Source of the DNA: Nitrosomonas sp. HPC101
GTDB taxonomy: Bacteria > Pseudomonadota > Gammaproteobacteria > Burkholderiales > Nitrosomonadaceae
Direction: 5' to 3'
DNA: 64,000 nucleotides
NCBI RefSeq assembly: GCF_009833125.1
Contig: NZ_QRCC01000010.1
Coordinates: 62,001 to 126,000, forward strand
Below the pieces are notes generated by a model. The model was not told the origin of the DNA. It saw only the letters and a list, made by a program, of their open reading frames with translations, and did not search any database. Made by a program: the position numbers and the translations under genes. Positions 32,492 to 63,888 of this stretch are shown piece after piece. Numbering within the stretch: the first letter of the stretch is position 1; each line of letters starts with the position of its first letter.

Positions 32492-33346
32492 ATGGATAAT
32501 AACCCACCGGCTGAACCTTTTTTTCTGGATGCCTCGCCTGGGAAACGTTTTTGTATTTATCATCCGCCGGTCGGGAATCCATTGAATCAAGCACTTCTCT
32601 ATATTCATCCGTTTGCCGAAGAAATGAACAAATCCAGGCGTATGGCTGCTTTGCAGGCCAAGGCATTTGCGACAATGGGATTTGGCGTGCTGCAGGTCGA
32701 TTTGTACGGTTGCGGGGACAGTGAAGGAGATTTTGGGGAGGCTACCTGGGCGATTTGGAAGGAGGATATCGCATACGCCAGCCAATGGCTGATGCAACAA
32801 GGATTTGCATCGGTTCACTTCTGGGGGGTGCGGTTGGGAGCCTTGCTGGTACTGGATTATGTAAACAATGAAGAGGCGAGGATTGATCCGGTGAAACTGG
32901 TGCTCTGGCAGCCTGTTGTCAATGGCAAATCGTTTCTGACCCAATTCTTACGCCTGAAGCTGGTGAATAGATTGATGTCGGATGATATGGGTAAGACCGA
33001 AAATGTACAGGATTTTCGTGAAAAACTGGGAGCGGGTGAGGCGCTTGAAATCGCAGGTTATACCTTGTCTCCTGCAATGGCCGCCGCAATTGATGCATTG
33101 AGGCTGGATCAGCTGGTCGTTGAAGGCAGTGAGGTGTATTGGTTTGAAATTACACCTGATGCCGAGCGTGGGCTTTCTCCAGCCAGTACTTCAGTCGTGG
33201 AGGCATGGAATCAGTCTGGTATTTATCCAGAGGTCACGCTCATACCCGGGTTGCCGTTTTGGGCGACTCAGGAAATCAGCGAATGTCCGGAGCTGTTGAT
33301 GGCTACTGCCAGGACATTTGAATCGTTTGCCGGAATCCCGGCATGA
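32492..33346 (+). CDS. Exosortase-A-associated alpha/beta hydrolase, type 2
   Basis: 284-residue alpha/beta-hydrolase-fold protein of the kind found next to exosortase A. The N-terminal strand block is LLYIHPFAEEMNKSRRM, then VLQVDLYGCGDSEGDF and a nucleophile-elbow position FWGVRLGALL, where the usual GxSxG serine is replaced by Arg-Leu. Absence of the serine nucleophile suggests it is not a classical esterase. Six bases after the carrier protein, and overlapping the next gene by 4 bases (ATGA). Confidence 0.82.
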   Translation: MDNNPPAEPFFLDASPGKRFCIYHPPVGNPLNQALLYIHPFAEEMNKSRRMAALQAKAFATMGFGVLQVDLYGCGDSEGDFGEATWAIWKEDIAYASQWLMQQGFASVHFWGVRLGALLVLDYVNNEEARIDPVKLVLWQPVVNGKSFLTQFLRLKLVNRLMSDDMGKTENVQDFREKLGAGEALEIAGYTLSPAMAAAIDALRLDQLVVEGSEVYWFEITPDAERGLSPASTSVVEAWNQSGIYPEVTLIPGLPFWATQEISECPELLMATARTFESFAGIPA

Positions 33347-34215
33347 ATTTTCAGGAACAGGCGTTACGTTTTCACTGTAGGGGTGACTGGTTATACGGTA
33401 TTTTGAACATACCGCAATCATCCTCTGCGCGTGGTGTGCTGATTATCGTCGGTGGACCGCAGTATCGCGTTGGCAGTCATCGGCAGTTCGTATTGCTTGC
33501 ACGCTATCTGGCGGAACGAGGCATTCCTGTCATGCGTTTTGATTTTAGGGGAATGGGTGACAGTGATGGTGAGATGCGGACGTTTGAGCATGTTGGAGAG
33601 GATTTGCGCAGTGCCGTCAATGTTTTTTTTGATGCATGCCCTTTTCTGAAAGATATTGTAGTTTGGGGGCTGTGTGATGCGGCTTCAGCTGCTTTGTTCT
33701 ATGCGCACCAGGATCAGCGGATAAGCGGACTGGTGCTGTTGAATCCATGGGTTAGAACGGAGCAGGGTATTGCCAAAGCTTACTTGAAGCACTATTACCT
33801 GCAACGTTTGCTTGAGCCGGAATTCTGGCAAAAGCTACTGAGTGGAAAATTCAATCCGCTGCTTTCCATCTGGTCTTTATATGAGTTTGGCAGAAACAGC
33901 TTGTGGAGTGGGAAAGAGCCGGTTGTATCGGAGGATGGGGGCGAATCACTGTGTGATTTGACAGCGCCTTTGCCAGAACGTATGTTGGATGGCATGAAGC
34001 GTTTTCAGGGAAAAATACTGGTCATTACCAGTGGAAATGATCTGACAGCGCGCGAGTTTCTGGATCTGGTCGATTCATCGAAGCCTTGGCAGGCTACGAT
34101 GAGAACGAAGCAGACAGAACTTTTCCATATGGAAAACGCCAACCATACTTTTTCCACACGTGAATGGCGCGACCAGGTGGCAGAGCTGACCGCAAACCGG
34201 GTGCTGTCATGGTAA
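33343..34215 (+). CDS. Exosortase-A-associated alpha/beta hydrolase, type 1
   Basis: 290-residue alpha/beta hydrolase. LIIVGGPQYRVGSHRQFVLLA and FDFRGMGDSDGE mark the fold. The nucleophile elbow reads VWGLCDAASAALFY, i.e. a Gly-x-Cys-x-Ala pattern with cysteine in the nucleophile position, and a late His lies in ENANHTFST. This matches the type-1 hydrolase of exosortase-A loci. It overlaps the glycosyltransferase gene by 7 bases. The substrate is unknown, possibly a thioester on the adjacent carrier protein. Confidence 0.82.
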   Translation: MNFQEQALRFHCRGDWLYGILNIPQSSSARGVLIIVGGPQYRVGSHRQFVLLARYLAERGIPVMRFDFRGMGDSDGEMRTFEHVGEDLRSAVNVFFDACPFLKDIVVWGLCDAASAALFYAHQDQRISGLVLLNPWVRTEQGIAKAYLKHYYLQRLLEPEFWQKLLSGKFNPLLSIWSLYEFGRNSLWSGKEPVVSEDGGESLCDLTAPLPERMLDGMKRFQGKILVITSGNDLTAREFLDLVDSSKPWQATMRTKQTELFHMENANHTFSTREWRDQVAELTANRVLSW

Positions 34216-52123: not shown

Positions 52124-54346
52124 ATGGCTACCCTTCTAAGAATAATACTTGCTTTTGCTGTTATCGGATGGATATGGTTGCCGGAATTTTTATTATGGCA
52201 CGTTCAGCCTGCTACGGTGACTACGGAAATAATAGAACATTCTCGAACAGTACCTCAGCAAAGTGTGCTTAACGAACTAAGCCAGATCAATCTGCAGCCG
52301 CCAGCAAACTGGGTTCCAAGTACAGGGGTAGCTGAACGTGCAGAAAATGTAGCAAAGGGAATTTTAGATATCCCTGACTTTCCATCAGTTGAGATTTCAC
52401 CTGTTTTTTCACCCGCCGATCTACAGAAACATCCTCAGCTTCTTGTTGCTAGCCTGGTAGCAGTCGATCAATTGCTTGATGGATACCTTTTTACAGGAAA
52501 GGAAAAGTACTTTCACCTTGCTAAAGAAAGCCTGATCAAATTTTCAGAATTTGAATCATCTCGTTTTTTTGATACAGGTTTTTTATGGAACGATCACGCT
52601 ATTGCTGCTCGTATTTCAGTATTAATCAAATTCTGGGCGCATTATCGAAATCGGGAAGATTTCGATCTTGAAGACGCAAAAAAAATCTTTTTATTGGTAA
52701 CCAGGAGTGGGTTGTTATTAGCAAAATCCGAACAATATGCCTGGCGAACGGGGCACGGTATTTTAGCTGATTTGGCTCTGATGCAAATCAGTACAGCATT
52801 TCCGTTCCTGAGTGAAAGTAATTATTTTCGTGAAACCGCAATACGCCGCTTTTCATCGCACCTGCCTTATTATGTAAATAACGAGGGAGTTACTTTGCTG
52901 CATTCTGCGGGATACAACTTTGGTGGTGTTCAATTCCTGGCTACGATGTTGCGTTTATACACGTTGAATAACTTAACAATCCCGATAGACTGGTGGGAAC
53001 GCTACAACAGGGTTAGTGATTTTTATGCACGGTTACGACGGCCGGACGGAACAATGCCAATGTTCGGAGATACTTCAAGTAAATCAAACTTTCTTGGCCC
53101 TCCCCGAACATATCAGCTAGAAAATGGAGATGCTGGCCCTTTGCAGCGAACAACAGATTGGCCGTATCACGGGGGGTTAAGCTTATATCCACAGGCTGGC
53201 CATGCAATTTGGTGGTATCCACAAAATCCGGATAGAAATAAAACACGCTCACAAACCGTTACCACATGGTCGTATTATCCACAGCTGGGACACAAACAAG
53301 CAGATGAATTAAGTATCCTGACTTGGGCAGAAGGTCGAAGTTGGATTACGAGTGTTGGATACTGGCCGTACGGCTCCAAAGGGCGTTCCAAAGCAGAGTC
53401 CTGGGGTGGAAATAATGCACCACACTTACGCAATGAAGCAGCTTCTTCACAACGTACATCAAGACTGATTAGTACGGGAAATGATGATGAGATTTTTTTT
53501 ATCGAAATGGAGCGCAAAGGGCCAGATGGCTTTAAGGTATTGCGGGAGGTGATGCAGATAGGCGCAAAGACGTGGATTATATTTGATCATCTGCAGAATG
53601 AAATTCCACGTGAAGCGAATACTTTCTGGACGTTCTATCCGGATCTTACAGTAGTACCGGGGCTGGCTGCCGGGAGTTTTACTGTGTCTGCACCCTATTC
53701 CGCTCAAGCAATGTACTGCTCTTTTCAGACAGATCAGGGCAGAGATGTTGAGCAATTATTTGGAAGCTGGGAACCATTTGCAGGATGGGTCACGACCGGG
53801 CAAGTGCCGGTGCCTGCGGAGACAATCGCTGTTAATACTAATTCTGAACAAGGCTGGCAGTTAGCAGTTTTTTCTCTGCGTAGTCAGAGAAAGGATCTTG
53901 ATGACCGTAGTGTTGATCTTGTAGCAACACTGACAAGTATTGATGGCCCGGATGACTGGGTCATCAATATTTCAGGCATTGATGAAAGTGACAGCATGAC
54001 AATTAGCCGTAATCAAAACCATATCAACTTGTTAACAAATGGAAAAACTGTTTCCGAAAAAGAATTGAAGCTAACTAAACAGTCTACCCTTGAAAACGAA
54101 GCTGCCTTCGTTTCAGCAGCGATAGGGGTTGCCGCGGAAAATAGTACGAGACAGCTTCCACTCATTTCATATCGCTTAAAAGCAACCTATGTATTGCTGG
54201 CAATCCTGATAATGCAAGAAATTTTATTTTTTATATTACGTCGGCGCCTGCCTCGTCTGGCAACATTATTGCGCACAGTGAGCATATTTGCCTGGATTGG
54301 TGTCGGATTGGGTCTAACAGAATTTTATTTCGTCGTAAAAGCATAA
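52124..54346 (+). CDS. Heparinase II/III-like polysaccharide lyase, membrane-anchored
   Basis: 740 residues. An N-terminal membrane helix (LLRIILAFAVIGWIWLPEFLLW) and two more helices near the C-terminus (YVLLAILIMQEILFFIL; TVSIFAWIGVGLGLTEFYFVV) anchor it. In between are an alpha/alpha-toroid (FLWNDHAIAARISVLIKFW; WRTGHGILADLALMQ; FYARLRRPDGTMPMFGDTSS) and a beta-sheet domain (WAEGRSWITSVGYWPYGSKGR; IFFIEMERKGPDG), the plan of alginate/heparin lyases. Such genes occur in exosortase-A-type loci and may trim or release the exopolysaccharide. About 100 bases before the asparagine-synthase-like gene. Confidence 0.85.
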   Translation: MATLLRIILAFAVIGWIWLPEFLLWHVQPATVTTEIIEHSRTVPQQSVLNELSQINLQPPANWVPSTGVAERAENVAKGILDIPDFPSVEISPVFSPADLQKHPQLLVASLVAVDQLLDGYLFTGKEKYFHLAKESLIKFSEFESSRFFDTGFLWNDHAIAARISVLIKFWAHYRNREDFDLEDAKKIFLLVTRSGLLLAKSEQYAWRTGHGILADLALMQISTAFPFLSESNYFRETAIRRFSSHLPYYVNNEGVTLLHSAGYNFGGVQFLATMLRLYTLNNLTIPIDWWERYNRVSDFYARLRRPDGTMPMFGDTSSKSNFLGPPRTYQLENGDAGPLQRTTDWPYHGGLSLYPQAGHAIWWYPQNPDRNKTRSQTVTTWSYYPQLGHKQADELSILTWAEGRSWITSVGYWPYGSKGRSKAESWGGNNAPHLRNEAASSQRTSRLISTGNDDEIFFIEMERKGPDGFKVLREVMQIGAKTWIIFDHLQNEIPREANTFWTFYPDLTVVPGLAAGSFTVSAPYSAQAMYCSFQTDQGRDVEQLFGSWEPFAGWVTTGQVPVPAETIAVNTNSEQGWQLAVFSLRSQRKDLDDRSVDLVATLTSIDGPDDWVINISGIDESDSMTISRNQNHINLLTNGKTVSEKELKLTKQSTLENEAAFVSAAIGVAAENSTRQLPLISYRLKATYVLLAILIMQEILFFILRRRLPRLATLLRTVSIFAWIGVGLGLTEFYFVVKA

Positions 54347-54445: not shown

Positions 54446-56206
54446 ATGACAGTTTTCGCAGGAATTTTTACCCGTTACAAAGATAAAGCTATACCAGGCG
54501 CATTCATAAATGAGCTTCGGTCTGTAATATCACGTCATCCTGATGATCAAAATGCTGTAATAGAGTTTTCTGATGAGAGGATTTACCTTGCAAAAATTGA
54601 TATTGGCGTACTGAAACAGTCTGGAAGTTTTTTTATTAAAGAATTGACGGCGTTGGTAGCAGGTGATCCTTTACTGCAAACCAGTCCAGATATGCCAGGG
54701 TCGCGTACGGAAAGTCTGCAGAACCTGGCGCTTGATCTGGCTGCCGGAAAACAGGATGTCCTGCAAGCATGTCGTGGAACCTATTGCGCAACTGTCTATG
54801 AACACACAACCGGAAAACTTCACTTAATAACAGATAAACTTGGCGTCCGGCCTGTTTACTATTGGATAACACCTGATTTCATTATTTTCTCGACTGCGCT
54901 GCGAATCCTCGAAGCATTATCTTTCCAGAAAAAATTGTTAGACCTTCAGGGTATAGCAGAAACAGCATGTTTCGGTTATCCGCTAGCCGATCGTACCCCT
55001 TATGAAAATATATTTACACTCTATGCCGGAGAAACAATCAGTTTCATGGATGAAACAATCGATCGGCGACGGTACTGGGAATGGGATAAGTTACCCACCA
55101 AAAAAACGAGTGATATGGGTACTTCTGCCAAACATCTTCATTCGATTTTCATTGATTCAGTCAGAATCCGGTTGCAAAAACAAAAAACCGTCTCGGCGTT
55201 TTTAAGCGGCGGCCTGGATTCTCGCGCTATTGTTGGCGCGCTGAGAAGTCTTGATGTGGAAGTAGTTACCTCCAATTTCGCCCGGACTGGCAGCCAGGAT
55301 CAAATATTTGGGCAACTTGCTGCTGACAAGCTGGGGACTCATCACACTCATCTGCAGATGGGCAAACAAAACGAACAGGATGCATACCACAAGTTATCTG
55401 TAAATGAATGGATAAATTCAGCAACTTACACAGACAAAAAACTGCAAAAACCCCGCGTTATCTGGTCCGGTGATGGCGGTAGCGTAGGCCTTGGTCATGT
55501 GTATCTGAATCAAGATATTGTTCAGGCCTCGCGAACAAAAAATATGGAAGAAGCAAAGGAAAGATTCTTGATTTATAACAACTGGGGGATGAGTACCAAG
55601 CTTTTAAAACCCGAGACAGCCTCAACTTTAATTAATTTTCTGCATAAAGGAATTCAATCTGAACTGGATTCGCTTCATCCAGATGATTCTGGTCGTGTTT
55701 TTTACTTATTTCTGATGCTGAATGATCAACGCCGGCACATGTTTAATCACTTTGAGAATATCGACATGGGGCGAGTGGAATTCGAGCTCCCATTTTTTGA
55801 TTCCGATTTTATTGCAGAAATAATCAAGCAACCCATTGATCTCTTTCTGCGCCACATCTTCTATATGGAATGGCTGAACTATTTTCCCAAAGAAACACTG
55901 GAAGTACCATGGCAGACCTATCCAGGTCACATACCCTGCCCACTCCCTCAGCCAGAAGGCCTTACATATCAGTGGAGTTCAAGCACCGAAGAAATCAGGC
56001 GGAATAAACTGCATGCGTTGAAATACGCAAAAAAGCTTTGTCAGGACTCGGCGTTTTCAAATGAATATCTGAATCTTTTTTACCTGAGGATATGGGTAAT
56101 TCTGATGCGGTTCGGACAAAGTGATCGCTCATATCTTCTCCAGGCCCCGGGAACTTTATATCGCTACTGGTCTAAAACTTCGCTGCACAGAGAAATCCAA
56201 AGTTAA
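54446..56206 (+). CDS. Asparagine-synthase-like protein lacking the glutaminase cysteine
   Basis: 586 residues. The N-terminal domain keeps the Ntn-hydrolase outline (CRGTYCATVYEHTTGKLHLITDKLGVRPVYY) but begins MTVFAGIF where active glutaminases have Met-Cys-Gly, so it cannot release ammonia from glutamine in the usual way. The synthase domain has the ATP-pyrophosphatase loop FLSGGLDSRAIVGAL near residue 253 and VIWSGDGGSVGLG. Adenylation and amidation of a polysaccharide or lipid carboxylate are possible. It lies between the lyase and the O-ligase gene in the same direction. Confidence 0.85.
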   Translation: MTVFAGIFTRYKDKAIPGAFINELRSVISRHPDDQNAVIEFSDERIYLAKIDIGVLKQSGSFFIKELTALVAGDPLLQTSPDMPGSRTESLQNLALDLAAGKQDVLQACRGTYCATVYEHTTGKLHLITDKLGVRPVYYWITPDFIIFSTALRILEALSFQKKLLDLQGIAETACFGYPLADRTPYENIFTLYAGETISFMDETIDRRRYWEWDKLPTKKTSDMGTSAKHLHSIFIDSVRIRLQKQKTVSAFLSGGLDSRAIVGALRSLDVEVVTSNFARTGSQDQIFGQLAADKLGTHHTHLQMGKQNEQDAYHKLSVNEWINSATYTDKKLQKPRVIWSGDGGSVGLGHVYLNQDIVQASRTKNMEEAKERFLIYNNWGMSTKLLKPETASTLINFLHKGIQSELDSLHPDDSGRVFYLFLMLNDQRRHMFNHFENIDMGRVEFELPFFDSDFIAEIIKQPIDLFLRHIFYMEWLNYFPKETLEVPWQTYPGHIPCPLPQPEGLTYQWSSSTEEIRRNKLHALKYAKKLCQDSAFSNEYLNLFYLRIWVILMRFGQSDRSYLLQAPGTLYRYWSKTSLHREIQS

Positions 56207-56242: not shown

Positions 56243-57517
56243 ATGAGGGATTTATTCGTTACCGCTGTTATTTTCGGAGCATTACCATTTGCACTGAAAT
56301 ACCCTCATATCGGCATCTATCTTTGGTCGTGGATCAGTTATATGAATCCACACAGATTGGCCTGGGGATTTGCTTATAATTTCCCCTTTGCGGCATTTGT
56401 TGCTGTAGCTGTATTTATTTCATTAGTTTTTTCCCGAGAGAAAATAACCTATTTCTGGTCTCCCATATTAAGCTGGTTAGTTCTTTTAAACATTTGGTTT
56501 CTTATTACAACTTTTTTTTCTTTGCAACCGGATGATTCCTGGGTTCAATGGGAGAAGGTATTCAAAATACAGCTGTTTACTTTTCTGACAGTATGGATAA
56601 TAAACGACAGAAGGAAACTACATTTTCTCGTATGGGTGATCGCGTTATCTGTCGGTTTTTATGGCATAAAAGGAGGAATATTTACATTAACCGGTGGCGG
56701 AAGTAGTCATGTTCTTGGCCCCTCAGGCGGATTTATTTCGGGTAATACAGAAATTGGATTGGCCATGGTAATGATATTGCCTCTAATCTGGTATTTATAC
56801 CTAAACACAATCCACCTATGGGCTCGCAGAGGGCTGGTAGTCGCTATGCTGCTTATTCCTGTGGCTATTCTCGGTACACAATCACGTGGTGCATTATTAG
56901 CCATCGGAGCAATTGCTTTTTTTCTCTGGATAAAAAGTAGAAAAAAACTTGTTCCCCTTATTGTCATAATAATAATGGCTCCTCTGCTTTTTAATTTTAT
57001 GCCTCAGTCGTGGCATGACCGGATGAGCACTATTACGAGTTCAGAAGAAGAAAGAGATACATCCGCGCAGGGCCGGCTGCTTGCCTGGGAATTCGCTACC
57101 AAGATGGCTGTTGCTCGCCCTTTAGGCGGCGGGTTTAGAAGTTTTACTCCGGAGAATTATGAGCGTTATGCACCAGGGCTAATCGCGCCAGGAGAAAAAT
57201 ACCAAGATTCCCATAGTATTTACTTTGGAGTGCTTGGTGAACATGGTTTCGTGGGCTTAGGAATTTTTCTCGTGCTTGGCTTTCTTGGATGGCGATCTGC
57301 CAATAAAATTATAAAACTCACCAGAAAATCAAAATCAGACAAATGGGCATATGATTTGGCAAGCATGCTCCAAGTTAGTCTTGTAGGATACGCTACGGGG
57401 GGAGCTTTCCTTGGACTGGCATATTTTGATTTACCCTATCACATCTTAATTATGATTGTCATAATACTAAGACTGATTGAGCAACAATCTCAACCCCAGC
57501 CCAAACTAAATTCGTAA
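56243..57517 (+). CDS. O-antigen-ligase-like protein of the exosortase-A type
   Basis: 424 residues with about 10 hydrophobic segments. The opening FVTAVIFGALPFALKYPHIGIYLWSWISYMNPHRLAWGFAYNF and the periplasmic loop with GRLLAWEFATKMA, GGGFRSFTPENYERYAPG and DSHSIYFGVLGEHGFVGL match the putative O-glycosylation ligase that accompanies exosortase A. It probably transfers a lipid-linked glycan to an acceptor outside the inner membrane. Last gene of this plus-strand group; convergent with the ligase cluster that follows. Confidence 0.9.
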   Translation: MRDLFVTAVIFGALPFALKYPHIGIYLWSWISYMNPHRLAWGFAYNFPFAAFVAVAVFISLVFSREKITYFWSPILSWLVLLNIWFLITTFFSLQPDDSWVQWEKVFKIQLFTFLTVWIINDRRKLHFLVWVIALSVGFYGIKGGIFTLTGGGSSHVLGPSGGFISGNTEIGLAMVMILPLIWYLYLNTIHLWARRGLVVAMLLIPVAILGTQSRGALLAIGAIAFFLWIKSRKKLVPLIVIIIMAPLLFNFMPQSWHDRMSTITSSEEERDTSAQGRLLAWEFATKMAVARPLGGGFRSFTPENYERYAPGLIAPGEKYQDSHSIYFGVLGEHGFVGLGIFLVLGFLGWRSANKIIKLTRKSKSDKWAYDLASMLQVSLVGYATGGAFLGLAYFDLPYHILIMIVIILRLIEQQSQPQPKLNS

Positions 57518-57624: not shown

Positions 57625-58350
57625 TTACAGCCGTCTGGCGGCCGTGATCGAGATGCCGCTCTTATGTGGACAACGTGTCAACAATAGCCGTCCGGATGTG
57701 CTGGTCAGAATCCAGCCCACCCTGAACCAGCCACATTTTCTGAAAGTATTCAATGAAGCGGCATTGGTCGAGCGGATATGCGTCAGGATTCTTGAATACC
57801 CGCGCTTTTGGATGTCCTGGCTTACTTTTCCGATCAGGGATGCCGCCGTTCCCATGCCGCGATATTGTGGATAGGTAAACAGATAGCCCAGAAAGACATT
57901 GCCGGGCGCTAAGCGAATATCCAGCTCTGTTGGTGAATCGACATGCACTACAGCGCTGCGATTGATATTCACCTGTGAAACGACACTGGTACCCTCAATC
58001 AATGCATAAACCCCCGTATCGCTGCTGATGAGCCTGGCGACACCTTGGCCGCTTTGCGAATCGAGCTGCTCAATCAGGGCATGCGGATACAGAGCGAGAT
58101 CCTGGGCAGTTGTCAGGCCAATGAAATGGAAGGCATGCCGTTCACCAGTGTCCCGAACAGGTTTGGGCCTCAACACCTGCTGTTGAGCCAGATCGATCGA
58201 ATAGAGAAAATGTACTTCCATCCGGAACAGCTTCTTGACAGCCCAGAATGCCGCGGCCTTGAATCCTCCCTTGGATTTCAGATGTGCCAGTTTTTCCTGC
58301 CAGCTACTCATTCCTTCAAGTTTGTCAGCCATGTTCTCAGTAAAATGCAT
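57625..58350 (-). CDS. GNAT-family acyltransferase
   Basis: 241 residues. The C-terminal half carries the GNAT core: FLGYLFTYPQYRGMGTAASLIGKV (acetyl-CoA pyrophosphate loop Q/R-x-x-G-x-G/A) and RSTNAASLNTFRKCGWFRVGW near residue 210. The N-terminal 90 residues resemble no domain I know. ATG 58350 overlaps the preceding gene; ATG 58332 (MADKLEG) is an alternative start. Overlap with the ATP-grasp gene upstream shows it is translationally coupled to that cluster. It may acylate the amino group of a product made by the ligases. Confidence 0.82.
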   Translation of the reverse strand: MHFTENMADKLEGMSSWQEKLAHLKSKGGFKAAAFWAVKKLFRMEVHFLYSIDLAQQQVLRPKPVRDTGERHAFHFIGLTTAQDLALYPHALIEQLDSQSGQGVARLISSDTGVYALIEGTSVVSQVNINRSAVVHVDSPTELDIRLAPGNVFLGYLFTYPQYRGMGTAASLIGKVSQDIQKRGYSRILTHIRSTNAASLNTFRKCGWFRVGWILTSTSGRLLLTRCPHKSGISITAARRL

Positions 58351-59476
58351 CGATCTTGCGCATCAGATTGGCTAGTTTTTTTTGTGGCCAGCTCAACTGC
58401 TCCCAGTAGCGGGGATAAGACTGACGGCGCACCGTTTCAATTTTTTCAGACCAGTAACCTTTACGGTTCGCATGTTGATGCAAATCCAGATCGGCGATTT
58501 CATTGTTTTCAATAATGACAGGCCCGCGGTCGGTCAGGGCGATGTCCCAATGATGGAGATTCATACCCATGAGGTAATTAGCCGCTCGTTCACAGATATC
58601 GATTACCTGCGGCCAATCCGGCAGCGTGTAGTGATCGAAATGTTCTCCTGTATCCGGATGAATGCTCACTGGCTCGATCCGACTATTGATGTTACCTACC
58701 ACCCGCGTAATTTGACCATTGGTCGTATCCACGCCTCCCAGCAAATTACCTGAGGCACCATGCTGAAAGTTATCTACCATACTCAATCCAGCGGGAATGC
58801 GCCAGACTGCACTGACAATAGTATTTTTGCCGCTTATCCGGGCGGAAGTAACACGTACTGTGCTGGCACGGGAGCCGCAAATGCGTGCGATTTCCGGGTG
58901 CGGCTTGAGCATTTCCTGGAACAGGATACCTTGTGAAAATTCCGGATTGAGCGATTCGAGCCAGTCGATCACTTTACGTTGTTGGCCATTGAGGAAGGCA
59001 ATGCTGTCCGATTCCGGCTGATAATTCTTCAGGCCCACTGCACCCCAGCCGTAAGCACCGTGACTGGGTTTGGCAAACATCGGATAATGCTGAGGCGTAC
59101 GCAGGTAGGCGGCAGCTTCTTCGATATTACTTAACGTGATGGAGTCCGGTATATTTCTGCCGCTGAGATCATAAACCGCATGAATTTTTGGCATGGGAAG
59201 GCCGGTTGCCATCATAAAGATTGTCATCGGTAATTTTTTACCCAGCATGAACCAATGAGGATCATTGCACACGTAATTAAGCCGAAATTTCCGGCCATTC
59301 CCTAGAAATCTGTGACGTTCTTCAGCACTCAGATCATCCAGCTCATGAAAACGGTAATCGATATATTCCTGGAATAACAGACGTTGTGAGCCGAAGCGCA
59401 TGCGCAGGATTTCGGACAACGTCGAGAAAGGCGCCCTGCGGGCGCGTTTGCCAAGCAGGATTCGGAATATCTTCAT
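58337..59476 (-). CDS. ATP-grasp protein of the sugar-transfer-associated type
   Basis: 379 residues. A helical N-terminus (RHRFLGNGRKFRLNYVCNDPHWFMLGKKL) is followed by an ATP-grasp domain: PMFAKPSHGAYGWGAVGL (ATP-binding Lys and Gly-rich loop), ILFQEMLKPHPEIARICG, STVRVTSARISG and the metal-binding end VIIENNEIADLDLHQ. It matches the family annotated as sugar-transfer-associated ATP-grasp, thought to add amino acids or similar groups to cell-surface glycans. Starts at ATG 59476; its stop lies within the overlap with the GNAT gene. Confidence 0.85.
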   Translation of the reverse strand: MKIFRILLGKRARRAPFSTLSEILRMRFGSQRLLFQEYIDYRFHELDDLSAEERHRFLGNGRKFRLNYVCNDPHWFMLGKKLPMTIFMMATGLPMPKIHAVYDLSGRNIPDSITLSNIEEAAAYLRTPQHYPMFAKPSHGAYGWGAVGLKNYQPESDSIAFLNGQQRKVIDWLESLNPEFSQGILFQEMLKPHPEIARICGSRASTVRVTSARISGKNTIVSAVWRIPAGLSMVDNFQHGASGNLLGGVDTTNGQITRVVGNINSRIEPVSIHPDTGEHFDHYTLPDWPQVIDICERAANYLMGMNLHHWDIALTDRGPVIIENNEIADLDLHQHANRKGYWSEKIETVRRQSYPRYWEQLSWPQKKLANLMRKIDAFY

Positions 59477-59522
59477 GGGGAAATTTCACCTCTCGTTAGC
59501 GATTCATTGAGAAATACCGGTT

Positions 59523-60569
59523 CTATCGGTTTAATCGGGAGTCAAGCCGGGTAACGAAATCTTCCCAGATGGCATCTTCCGGCTGTATAGGGCCCTCCAC
59601 CCAGACCGGTTCGGATGCATGCGTAGGCAGCTCCCAGTGGCCGGGACATTTAGTAATTGCCCATCCTTCGTAGTAATAACTAATTTCTGCAATGACAGGT
59701 TGACCGTTTCGCCGCAAAACATCAACGGCAAGTGACTGGGTTTGTAGTACGCTGGCAGTCCGGAAAGCGAGCAAAAGCGCATCTTGCGGGATTCTGGTGG
59801 GATCCCAATCTATGCGACCGCTGCCACTTGCCCGGAAATCACCGGGCCGGTTAAACCGCCTGAAGGCAAAGGCCCGCTTACCGATGACCGTGACGCGGAT
59901 ATCAAAATCATTGCCAGGCAGAAATTCCTGGAGCAATAAGTAGCCCTTATGAAATTCCTCATCCGTTGGTTTCGAGAGAAACACGCGCATTGCTTCACTG
60001 GTGCGCCTGACAAACCAGCGCCAGGGTAGATTGGCCGGTGGCAGTGCATACATGCCGGAATCGAACAGCGCATCCAAATGTCGGCGCGCTTTACGGCGCG
60101 TGTGTACTAGTTCGACATTCTTGGAAATAACACCGGAAGACAGCTTGAGCACCAGCGGGTAATTTGCTGATTCAATGAATTCTCCGGCCTGAGATTTTGA
60201 CCAGAATACCCAAGTCGCGGGCGTTGGGATATCCGCCAGTTGCAGCAGATAGGATTGTGCGGCTTTATCATCAAAATGCCAGATGGTATTCAGATTAGGA
60301 AATGTCGGTATCTTGCCCAGATGCGCGAGGGATGTGATCAATCTGCGGCCCGGGCGGCTCACTGATAATGGCTGGGCGAACCACCACATGAATCCATCGC
60401 AATCCTTGAGTTGATCCAGCCAGTTGGCAGAATTGGAAAAAATATCAACATCCAGCGTTGTTACACCTTGCTGCGTGGCCAACTCATGCCAGCGTGTCGA
60501 GAAAGACTGCCAACGCTTGCTTGAAAGTTGCTGGTGGTCTCGTTGAATTGCGATGATCGGTTTATTCAT
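59523..60569 (-). CDS. Second ATP-grasp ligase (RimK-like)
   Basis: 348 residues. The N-terminal domain contains FMWWFAQPLSVSRPGRRLI and PTFPNLNTIWHFDDKAAQSYLLQ, the form seen in RimK-like ligases that fix a substrate. The ATP-grasp core follows: YPLVLKLSSGVISKNVELV, YLLLQEFLPGNDFDIRVTVIGKRAFAFRR and LAVDVLRRNGQPVIAEISYYY (metal Glu). It probably forms an amide from a carboxyl-phosphate intermediate. About 46 bases upstream of the other ATP-grasp gene and 34 bases after the Mur-Pth fusion gene. Confidence 0.83.
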   Translation of the reverse strand: MNKPIIAIQRDHQQLSSKRWQSFSTRWHELATQQGVTTLDVDIFSNSANWLDQLKDCDGFMWWFAQPLSVSRPGRRLITSLAHLGKIPTFPNLNTIWHFDDKAAQSYLLQLADIPTPATWVFWSKSQAGEFIESANYPLVLKLSSGVISKNVELVHTRRKARRHLDALFDSGMYALPPANLPWRWFVRRTSEAMRVFLSKPTDEEFHKGYLLLQEFLPGNDFDIRVTVIGKRAFAFRRFNRPGDFRASGSGRIDWDPTRIPQDALLLAFRTASVLQTQSLAVDVLRRNGQPVIAEISYYYEGWAITKCPGHWELPTHASEPVWVEGPIQPEDAIWEDFVTRLDSRLNR

Positions 60570-60603
60570 GAGATGGCCTTGTAATGTATGTTGCTGGTAT
60601 CCT

Positions 60604-62475
60604 TTAGTGGATCATTGTTTCAATTTCTCCAGCATGAATATGCTGGTCAATCAGCTTAACCGATTGCTCAATGGCATGATTGAGACTGAAGGCTTCTTCG
60701 GGAGTAAATCGCGTCAATACGATATCTTTCGCCTTGCGTTGATCTCCGGGCCGCCTGACCCCGACACGCACACGGTGGACGGCGTCAGTGCCCAGTGCTG
60801 TAATTACCGAACGAACTCCCCGGTGGCCAGCGTCGCCACCATCGTGCTTAAGTCTGACCTTGCCGAGCTCGAGATCCATATCATCATGAATGAGGGTGCA
60901 GTGGTCGGCAGTGCAGCCATTGTTTGCGAGGAATTGCCGCAGCACCGGGCCAATAACGTTCATATTCGCAGCCGGCTTAAACAACTTGACAGCATTGCCA
61001 TCGATGTTGACTAGACTGATCAGACCTTCATCGATGGTTTCCCAGTGGCCACTGAAACGCTCGGCGATCCGGTCGAGTACTTGATAGCCCGCATTATGAG
61101 GCGTGGCTTCAAATTCTTTGCCGGGATTTCCCAGCCCAACCAGCACGAACGCACCTGGTACAGCCAATTGAGAAGACTTTGGTAAGGAAGTAGAAATCTC
61201 ATCATTCACCGAAACAGTGGCCTGATCAGGTGTATGTTGCGTAGCATCATAAAGATATTTGCAATCATCACAAAATATCTCTAAACCACAACGGTCTCGC
61301 CAGCACTGAATAGGTTGGTTTCGGTCATGGATAAGCCGTATGAGATGATCGGCGGTATTCGATCCTTTAAGAAGCACCAGATCTCCCCTGCGCAATTCAT
61401 TTTTGAGATAGATGGCCGCATCGTGGATATTTGAGAAGCCCTGGAGAGACTGATCATCCTGATCTTTTCTTGCACGAAGAGCGCGATGTGCATTAGATCC
61501 AACAAAAACGACCAGATCTGCATATTGTCTGATTTCTCTCGCAAATTGTTTATATTTTGCGGAAAGATCGCCCGAGAAATCGGATAGTGTTCCGATAACC
61601 GCAACCTTTCTGGGCGAAGCTGCTTGTTTGAGAAAATTTAACGGGGCTTGTAGTGACCAGTACGGCGCTTTCATATCGTCGCGGATAAACACAACCCCCT
61701 CGTCATCGGTGACAATTTGCATCCTGCCTTCTGCAGGCACTGCCTGCTGTAAAACAGGGATGGCCTTTTTCAGTGGGATATCAACAGCTACGGCAACACC
61801 TAAAGCTGCCAATACCGATAATGCCAGATGCGTGCCATGCAGCTGGGTTAGTATTTCGTATTCCTCGCCTTGAAACGCTATCCTCAGCTTTAAAGGCTCA
61901 GGCCAGCAGGACGTGGCAGAGAGTAGTCGAATAGTGGCACCTTCGGCAGCGCCGACCCAAATGACACGGCAGGGGGCGCGTTCCCCGATGGTTTTTACAC
62001 GCGGGTCGTCGATATTCAGGATGGCGACCCCGTTATGGGGTAAACCCGTTATTAATTTTTCCTTTTCCGCGGCAATCCCCTCGATCCCTTTGAACGCTCT
62101 GAAGTGATCACGCCCAATAACTGTCAATATACCGATTTGGGGCTTGAACAATCGCATGGGGAGATCAAGCGCACGGGGTTTTCCGGCCGAAATTTCCAGC
62201 AGGCAGAAACGATGTTGCCTGTCTGTGCGTAATACGGTTTCCGCGACAGCCAAGGCGACGTTGAGGGATTTGAGCGTGCCGCTTACGGGATAAAAAGCGG
62301 AAAGCAGTAAATGACTGAAGTCTTTGGTAGTGGTTTTGCCAGCGCTGCCAGTGATTCCGATGAAGCAGACATTACCCAGACGCTGCCGATGTACCCAGGC
62401 ACGAAAAAAAGTACGCGCTACCTTCGCCTTGTATCGGTAAGTTTCATATAAAGCCTTCATCTGAGTGTAGTGCAT
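60604..62475 (-). CDS. Mur-ligase-like protein fused to a peptidyl-tRNA hydrolase domain
   Basis: 623 residues with three parts. Residues 1-385: a MurF-like ligase with P-loop GITGSAGKTTTK (from 40), ILTVIGRDHFRAFKGIEGIAAEK and GRMQIVTDDEGVVFIRDDMKAPYWSL. The last replaces the usual DDxYNANP loop, so the acceptor site differs from MurF. Residues 390-404: a C-x4-C-x5-C-x2-C motif, probably zinc-binding. Residues 442-623 (bases about 60604-61152): a full peptidyl-tRNA hydrolase with VGLGNPGKEFEATPHNAGY, FKPAANMNVIGPVL, LIHDDMDLELGKVRL and GDAGHRGVRS. The catalytic His and Asp are present. The junction is in frame with no internal stop. Whether Pth cleaves peptidyl-tRNA or a pathway ester is unknown. 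Confidence 0.88.
   Translation of the reverse strand: MHYTQMKALYETYRYKAKVARTFFRAWVHRQRLGNVCFIGITGSAGKTTTKDFSHLLLSAFYPVSGTLKSLNVALAVAETVLRTDRQHRFCLLEISAGKPRALDLPMRLFKPQIGILTVIGRDHFRAFKGIEGIAAEKEKLITGLPHNGVAILNIDDPRVKTIGERAPCRVIWVGAAEGATIRLLSATSCWPEPLKLRIAFQGEEYEILTQLHGTHLALSVLAALGVAVAVDIPLKKAIPVLQQAVPAEGRMQIVTDDEGVVFIRDDMKAPYWSLQAPLNFLKQAASPRKVAVIGTLSDFSGDLSAKYKQFAREIRQYADLVVFVGSNAHRALRARKDQDDQSLQGFSNIHDAAIYLKNELRRGDLVLLKGSNTADHLIRLIHDRNQPIQCWRDRCGLEIFCDDCKYLYDATQHTPDQATVSVNDEISTSLPKSSQLAVPGAFVLVGLGNPGKEFEATPHNAGYQVLDRIAERFSGHWETIDEGLISLVNIDGNAVKLFKPAANMNVIGPVLRQFLANNGCTADHCTLIHDDMDLELGKVRLKHDGGDAGHRGVRSVITALGTDAVHRVRVGVRRPGDQRKAKDIVLTRFTPEEAFSLNHAIEQSVKLIDQHIHAGEIETMIH
61260..62400 (-). repeat. 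Tandem duplication, copy 1 (Mur-ligase part)
   Basis: This segment and 62640-63790 encode the same domain order, with long stretches of near-identical DNA in the central part, e.g. around 61670-61930 and 63050-63310 (shared gccagcaggacgtggcaga). The outer parts are more diverged. It arose by duplication of one gene. Confidence 0.8.
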
Positions 62476-62586
62476 CCGCTTGTTTTCCTTCCTTATTACC
62501 CAGGTTTCAAAGTTGGACGAACTGATTTTTAGCTATTTGCTCAATTATTAGCGAGATTCTTGATAGTGATCTTATAGGAGAATATA

Positions 62587-63888
62587 TCAGTACGATTTTT
62601 CTAGGGAGTTACTTTTTTGATTTGTTTGATAAAGGAACGCGCAGTTCTCGCAGAATATATTTAGTCCACAATTATCTCGCCAGCATTGTATGGGTTTGAT
62701 TCTGTCAAGAAAGATTCGAGCGAAATGACTTGCCCTGCGTGAGCCCTTAAGGAGAACCAGATCACCTTTTTGTAATTCATTTTTTAGATAGGTAGATGCA
62801 TCGTGAATATTCGAGAAAACTTGAAGGGATTGATCATTTATATTTATTCTTGAGCGAAGTGAGTGGTATGCATTTTGATCAACGAAAATAGCTATGTCCG
62901 TATATTTCTGAATTTCTCCGGCCAGTTGTTTGTATACATCGGAACTACTGCCAGAGAAATTGGTTATTGTGCCAATAACAGCAATTTTTCGCGTTGCGGA
63001 AGCTTGCTTAAGAAATTCTAAAGGCGCTTCTAATGACCAAAGTGGTGCTTTCATATCGTCACGGATAAACACGACCTCCTTGTTGTCGCGGACAATTTGC
63101 ATTCTGCCTTCAGTTGGTACCGCTTTCTCCAAAACAGGGATGGTTTTTTCCAGTGGGATGCCGGCAGCTATGGCAACGCCCAAGGCTGCCATTATTGATA
63201 GTGCCAGATGTGTGCCATGCAGCTGAGTGAGCACTTCGTATTTCTCGCCTTCAAACGCGATCATCAGTTTTAAAGGTTCTGGCCAGCAGGACGTGGCAGA
63301 AAGCAGCTGAATGGTGGCACCTTCCGCTTTTCCTACCCAAATGATACGTGCCTGACAACGTTCGCCGATCGCTTTTACACGCGGGTCGTCGATGTTCAGA
63401 ATGGCGATCCCGTCACGGGACAAATTAGTGATTAATTTGCTTTTTTCGGCTGCGATTCCTTCAATGCCAGCACCTTTGAATGCTTGAAAATGGTCGTTGC
63501 CTATAATTGTCAGCACGCCAATATCGGGCTTGAGCATACGCAGCGAAAGATCCATGTAGCCGGGCTGGTGACCAGCAACCTCTGCTATGCAATAGCGGTG
63601 GTGTCGTTTCGTTTCAAGAATGGTTCTGGCGATGAACAGATGTTCATTCTCAGTCTGGGGAGAGGCATGACTTTCAGAGAAGTGAGATAAAATGAGATGG
63701 CTCAGTTCTTTGGTGGTGGTTTTTCCTGCACTGCCCGTGATGCCGATAAAGCAGGTATTACGCATATTTCGGCGATGAAACCAGGCTTGCAGGTAAGTCA
63801 TACCCCGATGAGCCGTCCAATAGTGCTCCTTGAGAACTCGGACGAGCCCTCGCTTACGGTATATCTGCAATTGGTGAAAAAGATGCAT
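62587..63888 (-). CDS. Mur-ligase-like protein, tandem paralogue without the Pth domain
   Basis: 433 residues, clearly a duplicate of the ligase part of the downstream neighbour: P-loop GITGSAGKTTTK at 49-60, ILTIIGNDHFQAF, GIEGIAAEKSKLI, GRMQIVRDNKEVVFIRDDMKAPLWSL. The same C-x4-C-x5-C-x2-C motif begins near residue 402, after which the protein ends. Both copies keep the ATP loop and the RDDMKAP replacement, so both probably use a related, non-MurF substrate. Starts at ATG 63888 and probably leads the minus-strand cluster; the 110-base gap to the next gene is AT-rich. Confidence 0.87.
   Translation of the reverse strand: MHLFHQLQIYRKRGLVRVLKEHYWTAHRGMTYLQAWFHRRNMRNTCFIGITGSAGKTTTKELSHLILSHFSESHASPQTENEHLFIARTILETKRHHRYCIAEVAGHQPGYMDLSLRMLKPDIGVLTIIGNDHFQAFKGAGIEGIAAEKSKLITNLSRDGIAILNIDDPRVKAIGERCQARIIWVGKAEGATIQLLSATSCWPEPLKLMIAFEGEKYEVLTQLHGTHLALSIMAALGVAIAAGIPLEKTIPVLEKAVPTEGRMQIVRDNKEVVFIRDDMKAPLWSLEAPLEFLKQASATRKIAVIGTITNFSGSSSDVYKQLAGEIQKYTDIAIFVDQNAYHSLRSRININDQSLQVFSNIHDASTYLKNELQKGDLVLLKGSRRASHFARIFLDRIKPIQCWRDNCGLNIFCENCAFLYQTNQKSNSLEKSY
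62640..63790 (-). repeat. Tandem duplication, copy 2 (Mur-ligase part)
   Basis: Partner of the segment at 61260-62400; see that entry. The P-loop to cysteine-motif distance is about 350 residues in copy 1 and 353 in copy 2, so few indels have occurred. Confidence 0.8.

Follow-up and report, generated by a model that had tools for sequence, protein, structure and literature searches.

The stretch of DNA analysed here, referred to as the window, covers 64 kb of contig C10 in the 2.5-Mb genome of Nitrosomonas sp. HPC101. It carries five genes of the minus strand whose products combine two Mur-like ligases, one of them fused to a peptidyl-tRNA hydrolase (Pth) domain, with two ATP-grasp ligases and a GNAT acyltransferase. 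Mur and ATP-grasp ligases form acyl phosphates and then amides, and GNATs acylate amines. Read along the minus strand, the first gene (62587..63888) encodes a MurF-like ligase of 433 amino acids (aa) with the middle and C-terminal domains only, identified from its open reading frame (ORF) and from Pfam and NCBIfam matches. It is a tandem paralog of the second gene product, the 623-aa Mur ligase-Pth fusion (60604..62475), recognized with Pfam, NCBIfam and an AlphaFold model. A RimK-like ATP-grasp ligase of 348 aa (59523..60569), a sugar-transfer-associated ATP-grasp protein of 379 aa (ATPgrasp_ST, PF14397; 58337..59476) and the GNAT of 241 aa (57625..58350), all assigned with Pfam, follow. Gaps of 111, 34 and 46 bases separate the first four genes, and the ATPgrasp_ST and GNAT genes overlap by 14 bases. 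The first-pass annotation had described five tightly spaced minus-strand genes with these domains, and the ORFs lie exactly where it had placed them, with Pfam scores above cut-off. It had also counted three classes of ATP-dependent amide-forming enzyme; this number has to be lowered to two, Mur and ATP-grasp, as the GNAT and the Pth domain are not ATP-dependent ligases.

Both Mur proteins match Mur_ligase_M (PF08245) and Mur_ligase_C (PF02875) above the Pfam curated cut-offs; in the fusion these domains span residues 41-372 (61360..62355, minus strand). The Pth domain of the fusion (60616..61146, minus strand) matches Pept_tRNA_hydro (PF01195) over residues 445-620 with 147.7 bits, for a cut-off of 27. 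The RimK-like protein scores 50.2 bits with PF08443 (cut-off 21) and 54.6 bits with TIGR00768, under the cut-off of 143.4. Moreover, the place of the E-x-N sequence, which we take to be the final metal motif of the RimK family, reads E-x-S in both aligned members of the RimK-like family. ATPgrasp_ST reaches 112.5 bits with PF14397 (cut-off 31.4); its AlphaFold model is weak (mean pLDDT 57.6) and the fold matches are generic ATP-grasp enzymes, from which we conclude nothing. The GNAT matches Acetyltransf_1 with 30.8 bits, above the curated cut-off. Chance could not plausibly produce these five genes and domains, and the fusion is seen again in other genomes. Promoter- and terminator-like sites are no richer than in shuffled sequence (8 versus 9.9 and 8 versus 7.1, respectively); judging from spacing only, the five genes would form a single transcript.

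A Mur-like family with fusions to peptidyl-tRNA hydrolase

The 433-aa Mur protein and the Mur part of the fusion share 62.6% identity. For both, the best NCBIfam match is MurF (TIGR01143), with 190.0 and 193.6 bits for a cut-off of 288.6, and the alignments begin at positions 74 and 68 of the 418 in the model, leaving the N-terminal UDP-substrate region unmatched. The ATP-binding P-loop GITGSAGKTTTK is present in both proteins, and the nearest PDB relatives of the Mur part, by sequence and by fold, are MurF enzymes. Behind the Mur C-terminal domain stand four cysteines arranged as C-x4-C-x5-C-x2-C (62641..62685 in the 433-aa protein and 61261..61305 in the fusion, both on the minus strand), which are invariant in an alignment of 14 diverse relatives with down to 26% identity to the fusion. 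All 24 family proteins whose sequence covers that region in full have the motif, although the search profile included the cysteine columns, so that members without the motif could score lower. The second Mur ORF of N. halophila stops short of this region. None of 21 control Mur-type ORFs has the motif; these were taken from 6 loci of this genome and 15 lower-scoring matches of a search of the phylum, as the longest P-loop ORF of each locus. In the AlphaFold model, examined for zinc binding, fusion residues 385-438 with the cysteines and the linker have a pLDDT below 50. Judged by these alignments, the Mur proteins belong to a family of their own, which lacks the N-terminal region of MurF and has a four-cysteine motif.

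This family is patchily distributed. Counting the query genome itself where it is a member, it occurs in 5 of 398 genomes of the phylum search, where our genome and four others gave E 3e-98 or better and the rest, at E 1.4e-63 or weaker, were taken as ordinary MurF. It was also found in 6/85 Nitrosomonas genomes, in 5/369 genomes of a class sample, in 4/47 of one order and in one of three genomes from the order of G385. A search of plasmids gave a single distant Mur-only relative (E 1e-30), and no relative was found among the viral contigs searched. Four other Mur_ligase_M proteins are grouped on contig C14 of our genome, as an ordinary set would be. The members without Pth are the 433-aa protein of the window and those of G011, G066, G408 (two), G179, G506, G510, G526, G573 and a Gemmobacter plasmid. 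The G066 gene (L154 8826-10130), next to ATPgrasp_ST and GNAT genes, has an in-frame stop, through decay or sequencing error.

Thirteen Mur/Pth fusions were found in ten genomes: the window, N. halophila, G064 (three), N. eutropha (two), Haliea alexandrii, G421, G385, G908, G874 and G875. A further candidate, at L090, was dropped as an over-long ORF with a free-standing Pth. In G385 the order is reversed to Pth-Mur; by eye, this gene (L118 10152-12065) lies near lipopolysaccharide-core-like genes (HldE, KdtA, lauroyl acyltransferase) and ThiC. The G908 fusion is a Mur-Mur-Pth protein of 1110 aa that mirrors the tandem Mur and Mur-Pth genes of the window, which suggests that the two Mur proteins work together.

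The Pth domain of the window fusion reaches 139.2 bits with TIGR00447, above the cut-off of 100, and the fold match of its AlphaFold model gives a TM score of 0.85-0.89 by target length. The equivalents of Escherichia coli His20, Asn68 and Asp93, numbered via the 2pth alignment, are kept in 13/13 fusions. The place of Asn114 is taken by Arg in eight, Lys in two, Leu in two and Trp in one; the window protein has Arg, and its predicted catalytic set is therefore His, Asn and Asp with Arg at the fourth place. We considered whether loss of Asn114 marks a dead domain and rejected this, because the active Pth of Thermus thermophilus has Arg there and the position is Asn or basic, according to the accessible part of PMC11994314. 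Lys (three) or Arg (one) also stands at this place in 4 of 76 free-standing Pths, a biased sample that was chosen by peptide patterns of the query and is mostly from Bifidobacterium. The fusion Pth domains are less basic than this biased set (p 0.0009); net charge as a sign of lost tRNA binding proved uninformative, three host housekeeping Pths having -1, 0 and 1.

The ratio of nonsynonymous to synonymous differences (pN/pS), computed for five pairs of fusions, lies at 0.22-0.44 in the Pth domain and at 0.24-0.35 in the Mur part, against 0.42-0.76 in the linker of 33-37 codons; synonymous divergence (dS) is saturated in several pairs and only the contrast with the linker was used. By this contrast, the Pth domain is under purifying selection. 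A separate Pth that scores more strongly than any fusion is present, one per genome, in 14/14 genomes tested. In a tree of 30 Pth domains, made without the three fusions found later (G908, G874, G875), nine Mur-Pth domains cluster together (support 97/97) and separately from five housekeeping Pths of the hosts, which indicates that the domain was not recently copied from the host gene. The reversed G385 domain, a candidate for a fusion of independent origin, falls outside this clade but on a very long branch, and a single clade was not rejected (approximately unbiased test, p-AU 0.361).

The front part of the fusion has also been exchanged. In alignment columns 1-150, the N. halophila fusion shares 90-98% identity with the Mur-only protein of the window and 20-54% with the window fusion, whereas over columns 301-400 the figures are 54-67% and 94-98%, respectively. 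Recombination between paralogs has thus joined the Pth tail to different Mur front parts. Separately, the tandem Mur-Pth pair of G064 (L105 488-4287) has a Pth dS of 0.44 against a Mur dS of 1.68, and the N. eutropha pair (L025 8036-11848) is 86-92% identical in columns 351-450, 85% in columns 151-200 and 33-65% in most other 50-column blocks. Both pairs of tandem paralogs thus show signs of gene conversion in their sequences.

Companion genes and polysaccharide loci

Co-occurrence was read from the surroundings of the Mur-family genes (12-21 kb or more) and of five additional Nitrosomonas ATPgrasp_ST genes (G007, G850, G096, G073 and G082). The exact five-gene set was in none of the other genomes looked at, the five-gene order not being searched as such across genomes. 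G064 has Mur-Pth, RimK-like, ATPgrasp_ST and GNAT genes in the order of the window, with two further, divergent Mur-Pth genes and no Pth-less Mur. In G007, the RimK-like, ATPgrasp_ST and GNAT genes have a flippase-like gene (by eye) on one side and FemAB-like genes on the other; no Mur-family gene is found in that genome, and a 495-aa protein, PP-loop-like by eye and without a Pfam match, occupies the position of the window's Mur genes. G850 has ATPgrasp_ST and GNAT, and G066 the broken Mur, ATPgrasp_ST, GNAT and a FemAB-like gene, while a Mur or Mur-Pth gene accompanies ATPgrasp_ST in Haliea, N. eutropha, G011, G875 and G908. The gene set is modular and strain-variable, not fixed. The earlier proposal of one pathway of five genes is consequently only partly borne out: the last four genes recur in the same order in G064, the complete set was in no other genome looked at, and the subsets vary.

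ATPgrasp_ST lies near the Mur family at 8 of 18 testable loci (window, G064, G066, N. eutropha, G011, Haliea, G875, G908), N. halophila being left out for its contig of 3.9 kb. FemAB-like genes are within ~5 kb of the Mur genes at 6/18 (G064, G066, N. eutropha, G011, G908, G179); none was found in the window, and two are on contig C5 of our genome. Of the 85 Nitrosomonas genomes, 83 have a core ATPgrasp_ST, which scores more strongly than the further copy. Such a further copy above cut-off occurs in five of the six genomes with the Mur family and in 17 of the 79 others (Fisher p 0.004, kinship ignored); among these 17 is G082, whose contig begins where the Mur gene sits in N. eutropha and G011. 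The RimK-like family is rare, with 3/369 genomes at E 1e-25 in the class sample, in which two genomes of the genus are listed, and no plasmid relative at E 1e-10.

The run adjoins genes of polysaccharide synthesis. A putative O-glycosylation ligase of the exosortase A system (TIGR03097, 488.8 bits) is encoded at 56243..57517, an asparagine-synthase-like amidotransferase (Asn_synthase 47.4 bits; NCBIfam models at sub-cut-off scores only) at 54446..56206 and a heparinase II/III-like protein (Pfam) at 52124..54346, all on the plus strand. About 25 kb from the module, hydrolases 2 and 1 of the exosortase A system (hydr2/hydr1_PEP) follow each other at 32492..34215 on the same strand. Just past the window end lies a MOP-type flippase-like gene (262.5 bits, cut-off 273). 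With exosortase A (XrtA) encoded in the genome and TIGR03097 adjoining the module, we assigned the region to an XrtA/PEP-CTERM locus. The genes do not match the synthesis trio of NAGGN (N-acetylglutaminylglutamine amide): the amidotransferase scores 45.8 with TIGR03104 for a cut-off of 570.1, and in the NCBIfam scan the GNAT model of the trio was not listed for the GNAT or the ATP-grasp proteins.

XrtA-locus genes lie within ~8 kb of the Mur gene at all four loci scanned with NCBIfam (window, G875, G908 and Haliea), which were chosen by eye as XrtA-like. In G875, genes for a deacetylase (TIGR03006), FemAB (TIGR03019), XrtA (TIGR03109), a glycosyltransferase (TIGR03088), an amidotransferase (TIGR03108) and Mur-Pth share one strand, with ATPgrasp_ST convergent on the far side of Mur-Pth. 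TIGR03098 and TIGR03099 are ~5-6 kb from the Mur-Mur-Pth gene of G908, and TIGR03097 is ~7 kb from the Mur-Pth gene of Haliea; the loci of G385, G408, G506 and G526 are not XrtA-like by eye. The gene for a second RimK-like ATP-grasp of our genome (L164 9718-10752, minus strand, contig C2) has, by eye, genes for a flippase, for glycosyltransferases and for UDP-sugar dehydrogenases clustered around it, a setting consistent with amide formation on uronic acids. The surface-glycan link suspected in the first-pass annotation is therefore supported by the XrtA-locus genes at the four scanned loci and by this second RimK-like gene.

Several other genes were noted past the window end. A 286-aa protein (L010 8095-8955, plus strand), which by eye resembles PP-loop/QueC proteins but matches PF06508 only at E 0.007, is encoded divergently from the Mur gene; a shorter homolog with 89% identity over 132 aa is encoded next to the Mur-Pth gene of N. 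halophila. At L010 10700-15752 (plus strand) there is an ebo-type "metabolite traffic" cluster with a dehydroquinate-synthase-like protein, EboE (448 bits), an EboC-like UbiA (sub-cut-off), an unknown 271-aa protein and a TatD-type hydrolase. Two adjoining ORFs at L010 16283-17845 (minus strand) are by eye halves of one OafA-type acyltransferase.

Proposed role and competing explanations

We give roughly even chances to the five genes being a module for amide decoration that varies between strains and belongs to an exopolysaccharide locus linked to XrtA (exosortase A/PEP-CTERM). The sequence itself shows the gene content, the families, the fusion, the type of locus and the selection on Pth, and from these we infer a chemistry, its substrates, a glycan acceptor, a partnership of the Mur proteins and a role of Pth. 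The Mur-like and ATP-grasp enzymes would use ATP to turn carboxylates into acyl phosphates and would then link these to amines, so that amino- or uronic-acid sugars in the repeat unit receive amino acids or short peptides; the GNAT would cap a free amine, and the neighbouring flippase would export the decorated unit. The two Mur proteins may act as partners. The Pth domain would be an active esterase cooperating with the Mur domain and would most simply hydrolyse N-acyl-aminoacyl(-tRNA) esters, thereby releasing a carboxylate or clearing a stray ester product. When the GNAT toxin TacT has corrupted tRNA, Pth strips the N-acetylated amino acids from it, as described in the available portion of PMC9241777, and this action on GNAT-acetylated aminoacyl-tRNA makes the release of an N-acyl-amino acid for the Mur domain chemically possible. 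It is improbable that the Mur-Pth fusion goes as far as being a tRNA-fed amide ligase that feeds surface-glycan decoration. In that case an aminoacyl-tRNA would be acylated at its amine by the GNAT or a FemAB-like neighbour, the N-acyl-amino acid would be set free by the Pth domain, and the Mur domain would activate its carboxylate with ATP and join it to a sugar amine; a translation quality-control enzyme would then have been turned into a biosynthetic domain.

Several observations weigh against the decoration module. ATPgrasp_ST is absent from the examined stretch at 10/18 loci (G421, G874, G385, G408, G179, G506, G510, G526, G573, Gemmobacter), and the RimK-like protein and a GNAT of the window type are present at only 2/18 and 3/18 Mur loci, respectively. 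No glycan locus was recognized by eye in G408, G506 and G526, and XrtA of our genome is on contig C5, not on the contig of the module. The three of 13 fusions with Leu or Trp at the Asn114 place may, to go by this residue, have weak or inactive Pth domains.

Part of this evidence would suit a small soluble metabolite, such as a peptide-like osmolyte or a siderophore-like or antibiotic-like compound, the genes being next to polysaccharide genes only because the region tolerates insertions. Mur, ATP-grasp and GNAT proteins can build peptides, the Mur family is sporadic, its companions vary and several loci have no glycan genes by eye. We nevertheless regard a metabolite as unlikely: the five-gene run contains no other gene and thus no transporter or nonribosomal peptide synthetase gene of its own, the G875 Mur-Pth gene comes directly after core XrtA genes, and ATPgrasp_ST and FemAB-like neighbours recur. 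A variation of peptidoglycan, in which the Mur-like proteins would act on muropeptide precursors or recycled peptides, could be expected from MurF being their best NCBIfam match and best PDB relative, but the sub-cut-off MurF scores, the unmatched UDP-substrate region, the patchy distribution and the four other Mur_ligase_M proteins grouped like an ordinary set on contig C14 make it very unlikely.

The Pth domain could, on the other hand, be a pure tRNA-salvage add-on that stays outside the synthesis and shields the cell from aminoacyl- or peptidyl-tRNA acylated or misused by GNAT- or FemAB-type neighbours. The clearing of TacT-corrupted tRNA by Pth, in the accessible text of PMC9241777, is a precedent for such a task, and FemAB-like genes are near the Mur genes at the six loci given above. 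We consider this quite unlikely, because the separate Pth of all 14 genomes tested means that salvage alone needs no fusion; moreover, no FemAB-like gene was found in the window, and the use of tRNA by FemAB-like proteins is only putative.

Comparison with known systems

The enzyme families and the locus type are known, and we could not find a description of the Mur/Pth fusion or of the Mur family, although genome databases may already list the architecture. In a search that left most subscription papers outside, no literature was found that joins a Mur ligase with a peptidyl-tRNA hydrolase or with an exosortase. Pth is a translation-rescue enzyme. Its recurrent and selected fusion to a Mur-type ligase, in several cases within polysaccharide loci, suggests either that Pth chemistry serves biosynthesis or that tRNA and envelope glycans are connected in a new way. 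Moreover, the analysis defines a Mur-ligase family by the missing UDP-substrate region and the four-cysteine motif, and it offers a concrete putative operon for asking how XrtA-linked exopolysaccharides are decorated.

Compared with MurF, the window Mur proteins share the P-loop and the middle and C-terminal domains, whereas they lack a match to the UDP-substrate region, carry the four-cysteine motif, score under the cut-off and include one paralog fused to Pth. The Pth domain resembles bacterial Pth1 in its family score, its catalytic His, Asn68-type Asn and Asp, and its fold; in contrast to Pth1, it is fused to a ligase and is extra to the housekeeping copy, and Asn114 is replaced by Arg, Lys, Leu or Trp in all 13 fusions. 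The ATPgrasp_ST protein belongs to PF14397 by its score, but it is a divergent further copy beside the core Nitrosomonas copy elsewhere. XrtA/PEP-CTERM exopolysaccharide loci are matched by TIGR03097, hydr1/hydr2, FemAB, deacetylase, amidotransferase and XrtA neighbours among the four loci and by the flippase-like gene, whereas the amide-ligase module varies by strain and is unmentioned in the accessible part of PMC1569441. Finally, the pairing of GNAT and Pth is reminiscent of the TacT toxin and Pth, which can act in sequence on aminoacyl-tRNA (PMC9241777, available portion), but in the window the GNAT and the Pth domain are encoded beside polysaccharide genes.

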